Shown here in pieces: positions 14,496-32,725 of a DNA stretch of 41,862 nt (position 1 is its first letter; the number at the start of each line of letters is the position of its first letter). The translations under genes and the position numbers were made by a program. This stretch comes from Acidobacteriota bacterium (GTDB taxonomy: Bacteria; Acidobacteriota; Blastocatellia; Pyrinomonadales; Pyrinomonadaceae), in contig JAKQII010000384.1 in the NCBI GenBank assembly GCA_029557535.1, forward strand, positions 1 to 41,862. Direction: 5' to 3'. The notes below the pieces were generated by a model. The model did no database searches, was not told the origin of the DNA, and worked only from the letters and a program-made list of their open reading frames with translations.

Positions 14496-14779
14496 GCAGC
14501 CATTCGACGAACCGGTTGGGTCACAAACCGCTTGGTTGGTTCTCGGCCTTCCGCCCGGCGTCACGGCGTCTCCCCGAAAACTCCGGGGTCCCGTTCCGGA
14601 GTCATATTCCGCCTGACCTGCTTTGCCGATACAGCCTGGCCCAATCCGGCATTCTCGTCGAGGCCTGGCAATGAAGCGACCAGAAGAATTCCGGCAGCCG
14701 AACGATTGCCGGCACGATGAGTTGATTTCCGCGGCAGACGTCCGGCGGTGGCTCGGATGGGAAATCTTGATTCAACCGG

Positions 14780-15009
14780 TACGCAATAGGATCTGCTTTC
14801 CGCGAAACACGCTAAACACGCGAAAATGACCTTCCGTCAAGACCTCGGTCGGAGGTTTGATTTCTTGATCGCTTGCGGCCGTAAACCGCTTCTTTGCAAT
14901 ACTTGTGATCCGGAATGGCATCGCGTAACGCTTTTGCATACCGACCAACATCCGACGCGGCTTTCGCGCTTTTCACGGTCAAGAATCTTTAACCGAAATT
15001 GCGCAATCG
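14780..15009 (-). repeat. Dispersed intergenic repeat, copy A
   Basis: Read on the minus strand, this stretch is clearly homologous to 32428-32629 on the plus strand. Exact shared blocks: a 19-base block at 14927-14945 (matching 32493-32511), a 15-base block at 14886-14900 (matching 32531-32545) and a 13-base block at 14837-14849 (matching 32568-32580), all in the same order. Copy A also carries a 9-mer run (CGCGAAACA, CGCTAAACA, CGCGAAAAT; 14801-14827) that is shorter in copy B. No transposase or terminal repeats are visible. Confidence 0.85.
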
Positions 15010-15046
15010 ACACTTCGGCTCCACAACGCCGTCGATCGATCTCGCC

Positions 15047-15181
15047 GCGGATTACGCAGATAACGCGGATATGCGCAGAAAATGTAGACCTGATTGAACT
15101 TAGGCCGTCGATTGCGACAAAATCGCAATTCGCCATCATCCGGCTTAATGGGTTGTCCGCGTCATCCGCGTTCTTCAGCGG
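15047..15181. repeat. Inverted 9-mer pair
   Basis: The left arm 15047-15073 has three 9-base units (GCGGATTAC, GCAGATAAC, GCGGATATG). The right arm 15155-15172 has two units in the inverted sense (GTCCGCGTC, ATCCGCGTT), with a weaker third to 15181. The spacer is about 80 bases. The architecture matches the other inverted arrays in the window. Confidence 0.65.
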
Positions 15182-15284
15182 CTCTAATGCGTTATCCGGG
15201 TTTAACGCGTACGGTTTCAACGTACGCTGGGCGTCGTCATTCTACCGGACCGGCCTTTTGGCGGATCGGGGCGGGGGGCAAAAC

Positions 15285-15316
15285 GAAAAAAAGAGGCCGC
15301 CTTTTCAGGCAGCCTC
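15285..15316 (-). terminator. Terminator of the first TonB-dependent receptor gene
   Basis: On the minus strand, GAGGCTGCCT pairs with AGGCGGCCTC (one wobble) around a GAAA tetraloop, followed by seven Ts. It lies 28 bases beyond the stop codon at 15345. Confidence 0.93.
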
Positions 15317-15344
15317 AAAAGGTTGCTAGTTGTTATTGAAAAAA

Positions 15345-32292: not shown

Positions 32293-32427
32293 TTTTTGCA
32301 TGCTCCGGCAATTGAGTTTCGGGAGAGCTCGACGCAAGTCGAATAGAATCTAATGGATAACGAGCCTTGAAACGCCACCCGTATGGGTAGGAAGCCGAAA
32401 ACCGCACGATCGGATCTTTCGATCCCG

Positions 32428-32629
32428 GATTGTGCGCTAAAGATCTTTGCCAGCGAAATTGGCGAAAAGCGCGAACGTTTCTTCGGTTGTTTGTCGGTAT
32501 GCAAAAGCGTTGCCGTCTGCGATTCCGGAAATTGCAAAGAAGCGGGCGATCAAGACATCAAGCACCCACCGAGGTCTTGAGGGACGGTCATTTTTCGAGT
32601 GTTTAGCTGGACGCAAATCCTATTGCGTA
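32428..32629 (+). repeat. Dispersed intergenic repeat, copy B
   Basis: Homologous, in the opposite orientation, to 14780-15009. Shared exact blocks of 19, 15 and 13 bases occur in the same order. The 9-mer run of copy A is reduced here to about one unit (32594-32607). Short open frames in both copies translate to a similar phrase (GC-SVCKSV-C-SG), reflecting DNA homology; neither has a ribosome-binding site. The rest of the 433-base gap (32293-32725) between the regulator and propeller genes holds nothing else recognised. Confidence 0.85.
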
Positions 32630-32725
32630 ATCCCGGTCGTTCGGAAGCCTCTTGATCCGGATCGGGGCGCGGATCGGCCACGACCGTGAATCATGTCGGG
32701 CCACGCCACGAATCGGGTCGTCGGG

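Follow-up and report, generated by a model that had tools for sequence, protein, structure and literature searches.

The repeat that occurs in two inverted copies in the window (the whole stretch of 41,862 nucleotides that was analysed) is very probably a non-autonomous MITE, in which ends of the IS1380 type surround a GxxExxY-type palindrome that carries no gene. Taken alone, the reading as a MITE is firm; the link to GxxExxY is a strong association. Since IS1380-type ends are combined with GxxExxY-type arms and the gene is missing, we regard the element as composite.

An earlier note on this DNA had described the minus strand of 14780-15009 as matching the plus strand of 32428-32629. We searched the organism's own genome (4.77 Mb, 404 contigs, 98% complete) with 14780-15009 (minus). 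The search matched 22 places and recovered the second copy of the window at 32464-32629 (plus) with E=3.4e-24, so the two inverted copies are real. The neighbouring sequence 15010-15260 was a second repeat with 20 places in the same genome, about 19 of them further ones. The similarity among copies of both repeats, which we call families A and B, is far above chance, and they are spread genome-wide. The boundaries given for the copies did not hold. The first copy (A1) covers 14776-15215 with a nested B element at 14993-15200, and the second (A2) covers 32424-32636. Because A1 is interrupted by B, the interval 14780-15009 begins inside the right end of B. The features are as follows.

14776..15215, minus strand: copy A1 of MITE family A, 227 bp when the nested B that interrupts it is left out (genome search, copy alignment)
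14771..14775, minus strand: right target-site duplication of A1, TTGAA
15216..15220, minus strand: left target-site duplication of A1, TTGAA
14993..15200, minus strand: element of MITE family B (208 bp) whose insertion site is in the left end of A1 (genome search, copy alignment)
14988..14992, minus strand: right target-site duplication of B, TTAAA
15201..15205, minus strand: left target-site duplication of B, TTAAA
14957..14980, minus strand: A1, left inner arm in decayed form (GACCGTGAAAAGCGCGAAAGCCGC; CGCGAAA units; evidence also from other copies; arms of the own-genome GxxExxY cassette C396 match the A consensus)
14800..14824, minus strand: right inner arm of A1 (TTTCGCGTGTTTAGCGTGTTTCGCG region)
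15152..15187, minus strand: left inner arm of B (CGCGGAT units; C15 cassette arms match the B consensus)
15043..15070, minus strand: right inner arm of B (ATCCGCGTTATCTGCGTAATCCGCGG region)
32424..32636, plus strand: MITE family A, copy A2, 213 bp, several small deletions
32419..32423, plus strand: left flanking 5-mer of A2, TCGAT
32637..32641, plus strand: right flanking 5-mer of A2, TCGTT, 4/5 the same as the left

With B taken out, 163 of 197 aligned bases were identical between A1 and A2; A2 looks like the older copy. Both elements of the nested pair have perfect duplications (TTAAA for B, TTGAA for A1). On contig C303 a different A carries a B at the corresponding site, inserted the other way round. 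Uninterrupted A copies have GCGTTAAAGAT or a variant of it at the place of the B insertion and therefore serve as the empty site. A1/B and A2 are intergenic, between protein genes, and do not lie inside a 23S rRNA gene. On the minus strand of the window, at 15280-15320, a GC hairpin with a T run behind it resembles a terminator; it stands directly after the Oar-like gene and upstream of A1/B.

Family A is about 243 bp long, with imperfect 16-bp terminal repeats (CCCRGATTRCGCANTA) and 5-bp duplications of the form NTNAN, and family B is about 206 bp long (208 bp for the window copy). Ends of both have the form CCSRGATTRCGCANTA in inverted orientation. The same ends are common to families A, B, C and D; the interiors differ. 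The end pattern NAACCSRGATTRCGCANTA, with at most 2 mismatches, gave 68 matches in the genome, compared with 1 for a reversed control pattern. Copies were gathered by search together with fetched stretches, in which pairing of ends gave 47 candidates; 8 of these were judged by eye to be wrongly paired and were left out ahead of any statistics. The 39 accepted elements belong to at least four families (A-D), mostly of about 190-245 bp with a 16-bp imperfect TIR. We observed identical 5-bp flanks in 25/39 of them and flanks identical at 4/5 positions in 9 more (34/39 with at least 4/5), while shuffling of the right flanks gave a mean of 3.2 identical pairs and a maximum of 10 (5000 permutations). 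The target was mostly W-T-N-A-W / TTNAA, with T at position 2 in 74/78 and A at position 4 in 75/78 flanks. A 275-bp B element elsewhere in the genome (C183:21251-21525, L051) includes about 70 bp of additional sequence after the left end, and its TTAAA duplications are perfect; B ends can thus carry extra DNA.

In a crude check of whether the elements keep out of genes, 4/27 were spanned by open frames. The consensus of A and B, translated in six frames, matched neither GxxExxY nor a transposase, in agreement with the earlier statement that neither copy encodes a credible protein. Since the centres of the families held no remnant of either protein (GxxExxY profile and IS1380 transposase, six frames), neither a transposase nor a GxxExxY origin is proven.

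Further, we identified an element with matching ends that does carry a transposase. In a Chitinophagaceae MAG (L078), ends of the A-D type stand 1408 bp apart around a 448-aa protein that is an IS1380 transposase by NCBIfam NF033539 (250.8 bits, cut-off 180) and matches Pfam DDE_Tnp_1_4 (8e-48). Two Bacteroidota loci (L171, L172) encode proteins 70-81% identical to it, also between A-D-type ends. Many contigs break inside such an IS1380 element, with transposase fragments adjoining the end sequence. IS1380-family elements and the MITEs derived from them resemble A-D in their ends (CCCAGATTACGCANTAG), in the 5-bp AT-rich target duplication and in that these are the ends of a 1.4-kb element, although the ends behind this link are only 16-20 bp and imperfect and the A2 duplication is imperfect too. 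ISEcp1, a published IS1380-family element, also makes 5-bp duplications (PMC2887853). In contrast to IS1380 elements, A-D have centres unrelated to the transposase, and no CGC-phased inner arms were seen in L078. PF13701 and an IS1380 protein query detected no IS1380 transposase in the own genome, and none was found in its sampled family. The partner is therefore known only from other organisms, the link depends on the ends and the duplication length, and the partner has been lost, is unassembled or is supplied from outside. IS1380 genes are present in class-level relatives, but the end-like sequences adjoining those genes are of another type (CCCGGATTATTCATGA).

Taken together, the elements are multi-copy and short, have terminal inverted repeats and 5-bp target duplications, carry no gene and have ends in common with an autonomous IS1380-family element. 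The proposal of the earlier note that they are MITE-like was therefore correct.

The end pattern was absent from the sampled members of the genus and family, and its exact form was found in 2/396 genomes of the phylum. The families thus represent a lineage-specific burst. The second genome with the exact pattern (G189) has a different element of 160 bp with ends as in A-D. In this 160-bp MITE with IS1380-type ends (L220, L222) the inner CGCAAAG arms appear to be opposite in orientation to those of GxxExxY cassettes. In a scan of the genome collection, such ends with TTNAA occurred, among the matches listed, in Bacteroidota, Calditrichota, Verrucomicrobiota and others, many of them as MITEs of 130-270 bp. 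Loci L080-L156 (Flavobacterium davisii, Chitinophagaceae, Balneolaceae and others) include many MITE families of this size with A-D-type IS1380 ends in Bacteroidota, and one MITE (L152) retains a 43-codon piece of the transposase C-terminus.

All four families carry, inside their ends, inverted arms in which CGC recurs every 9-10 bp in about three units. The unit is CGCGAAA in A, CGCGGAT in B and CGCGAAT in C and D. A concatenated A-D query found matches in 35/99 genomes of the family, which outside the own genome were essentially the arms (25-47 bp). The search of related genomes that the earlier note had proposed thus recovered the inner arms and not whole A-D elements. Many arms in the relatives are paired in inverted orientation across loops of 11-78 bp, without IS1380 ends. 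Two genomes (L241, L243) share one such hairpin, with 98.7% identity across 150 bp and dissimilar flanks. The L241 hairpin has a further inverted repeat on its two sides (TAATTCTACTTTGTCAGATTAA); arms may thus also join the ends of other transposons. Literature searches with the arm-motif strings found no paper.

One arm pair flanked a gene for the nuclease-like protein GxxExxY, and for this reason we examined the association between GxxExxY and arms. PF13366 genes were present in 79/99 family genomes, with up to ten per genome; the three proteins that we examined were all named GxxExxY (TIGR04256). Inverted arms stood on both sides of the gene in 28/30 GxxExxY loci, compared with 2/114 shifted windows of the same loci (at least 20/26 matches between the two sides, a threshold chosen after inspection of the data; the 30 loci are among the best-scoring and several are orthologous). 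The arms (L261-L290, L321-L339) consist mostly of three C[AG]C-N-R-A-N units spaced 8-10 bp, usually of the same type on the left and right (CACAGAG, CGCAGAG, CGCAAAG, CACGAA and others). In other phyla 12/23 PF13366 loci had arms (1/88 controls), and several of the failing loci encode longer proteins that may not be GxxExxY. The unit type tracked the protein tree across phyla, with labels set by hand and sometimes from one side only: there were 15 changes for 41 proteins (25.4 when shuffled), 15 for 29 dereplicated proteins (19.5 when shuffled, 1/200 shuffles as low) and 4 in a three-class grouping chosen after inspection of the data (13.3 when shuffled).

The own genome contains two cassettes whose arms resemble those of the MITEs. 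Cassette C396, whose GxxExxY gene was matched in two pieces, has CGCGAAA arms that agree with the consensus of family A at 89% over 28 bp; the CGCGGAT arms of cassette C15 agree with that of family B at 93% over 29 bp. GxxExxY cassettes (TIGR04256, PF13366 PDDEXK_3) are thus like A and B in their inverted arms, which mostly have three units of 7 bp at a spacing of 8-10 bp; they differ in that the gene is missing from the MITEs, whose arms are enclosed by IS1380-type ends. Comparison of orthologous loci did not yield a site cleanly empty of a GxxExxY cassette. One GxxExxY copy weakly matches Cas4. We found no characterisation of the GxxExxY/PF13366 family in those parts of the literature that our search covered. 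As judged from sequence, the link of GxxExxY to the arms is a strong association, and the association together with the co-variation of unit and protein suggests that GxxExxY may act on them.

A second gene family presents a parallel pattern. PF05635 genes (23S IVS protein, four-helix bundle) were found in 89/99 family genomes in up to 17 copies, and 24/29 of their loci (L291-L320) had inverted arms, mostly of 7-bp tandem units, compared with 3/105 controls. The 23S IVS of Coxiella has been described as selfish, with a terminal stem of 28 bp that encloses the S23 ORF, and its origin as unclear; the origin of 23S rRNA intervening sequences has been unsettled since 1990, and an older proposal holds that the IVS ORF serves mobility (PMC4990558). 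The MITEs share with the 23S IVS the terminal inverted repeats that form a stem, between which the IVS has a small ORF. The MITE differs from it in lying outside rRNA, in having no ORF and in its arm unit, which is not the 7-bp tandem of the IVS type. At some orthologous intergenic sites a GxxExxY cassette in one genome stood opposite a four-helix-bundle cassette in others (L275 vs L292/L294; L276 vs L309), as if these sites were insertion hot spots.

We propose that the repeat moved by means of an IS1380 transposase that now seems to be absent, and that its arms derive from a GxxExxY cassette. The IS1380-family DDE transposase would bind the 16-bp terminal repeats in trans and place the element into NTNAN sites, mostly TTNAA, with duplication of 5 bp. 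Families A-D, at least four, use common ends and insert into each other. The arms inside the ends may have arisen either by capture of a gene-less cassette or by selection for GxxExxY-bound sites.

It is rather unlikely that GxxExxY itself moved or maintained the repeat as a palindromic element, with the phased C[AG]C-N-R-A-N arms as its recognition sites, intact cassettes as the form that has the gene, the hairpins and MITEs as gene-less derivatives and the IS1380-like ends as secondary. The frequency of arms at GxxExxY loci (28/30 vs 2/114; in other phyla 12/23 vs 1/88), units that are mostly the same on both sides and follow the protein tree across phyla, and gene-less arm hairpins dispersed in relatives would all fit such an element. 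However, the A-D ends and the accurate 5-bp duplications are of the DDE-transposon kind and are located outside the arms. The arms themselves could equally be regulatory or RNA-processing sites. We consider it very unlikely that the MITE belongs to another transposase family that prefers TTNAA. CCC ends beside TTAA-like sites do resemble piggyBac, for which a survey used IS1380 transposases as outgroup (PMC10813416), and Tn3 elements also make 5-bp duplications (PMC2887853). Nevertheless, the duplication here is 5 bp with a variable centre and not TTAA, inverted repeats of the Tn3 type are 38 bp (PMC2887853), and the matching autonomous element that was found encodes an IS1380 transposase.

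The earlier note had also offered a REP-like family or a multi-copy non-coding RNA gene. Like the repeat, REP/REPIN sequences are dispersed intergenic palindromes, but they are 20-40 bp long and make no target duplications. The MITEs exceed 200 bp and have such duplications, so the REP-like reading fails for the whole element, though palindromes that stand free in related genomes look like its inner arms. Gene-bearing and gene-less arm forms would parallel RAYT and REPIN. The conserved centre of family A and the foldable structure of its inverted arms are what an RNA gene might show, yet this origin is hardly credible. The whole window had no Rfam match at gathering thresholds, and RNAalifold on eight A copies gave 51 predicted pairs with double changes in 3 and an unfavourable covariation term of +2.33. 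The four families have unlike centres, with only the ends and the arm type in common, and the copies are explained by transposon ends and target duplications. As for a single segmental duplication, or two intergenic stretches that resemble each other by chance, about 20 relatives in the own genome with independent flanks and target duplications reduce its probability almost to nil; this reading, named as the alternative in the earlier note, was not borne out. Overall, the earlier observation was confirmed and its interpretation partly supported.

Taken as a MITE, the repeat is nothing out of the ordinary, but its composite anatomy, the IS1380 ends in common with Bacteroidota and the lineage-specific burst are, within the reach of our search, unreported. 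GxxExxY and the 23S-IVS four-helix bundle are small gene families, both very common, to which no cellular role has been assigned; most examined loci of both sit between family-specific inverted, phased arms. We tentatively suggest, as one possibility, that GxxExxY (PD-(D/E)XK) recognises arms built of three phased C[AG]C-N-R-A-N units, inverted on the two sides of its own gene, and propagates or maintains the cassettes. Free hairpins and MITE arms would be its gene-less substrates, and four-helix-bundle genes of the 23S-IVS type would form a parallel system with 7-bp units. If this is true, the MITEs of the window would be substrates of two unrelated enzymes. The arm pattern makes both the function of GxxExxY and the origin of the 23S rRNA IVS directly testable.
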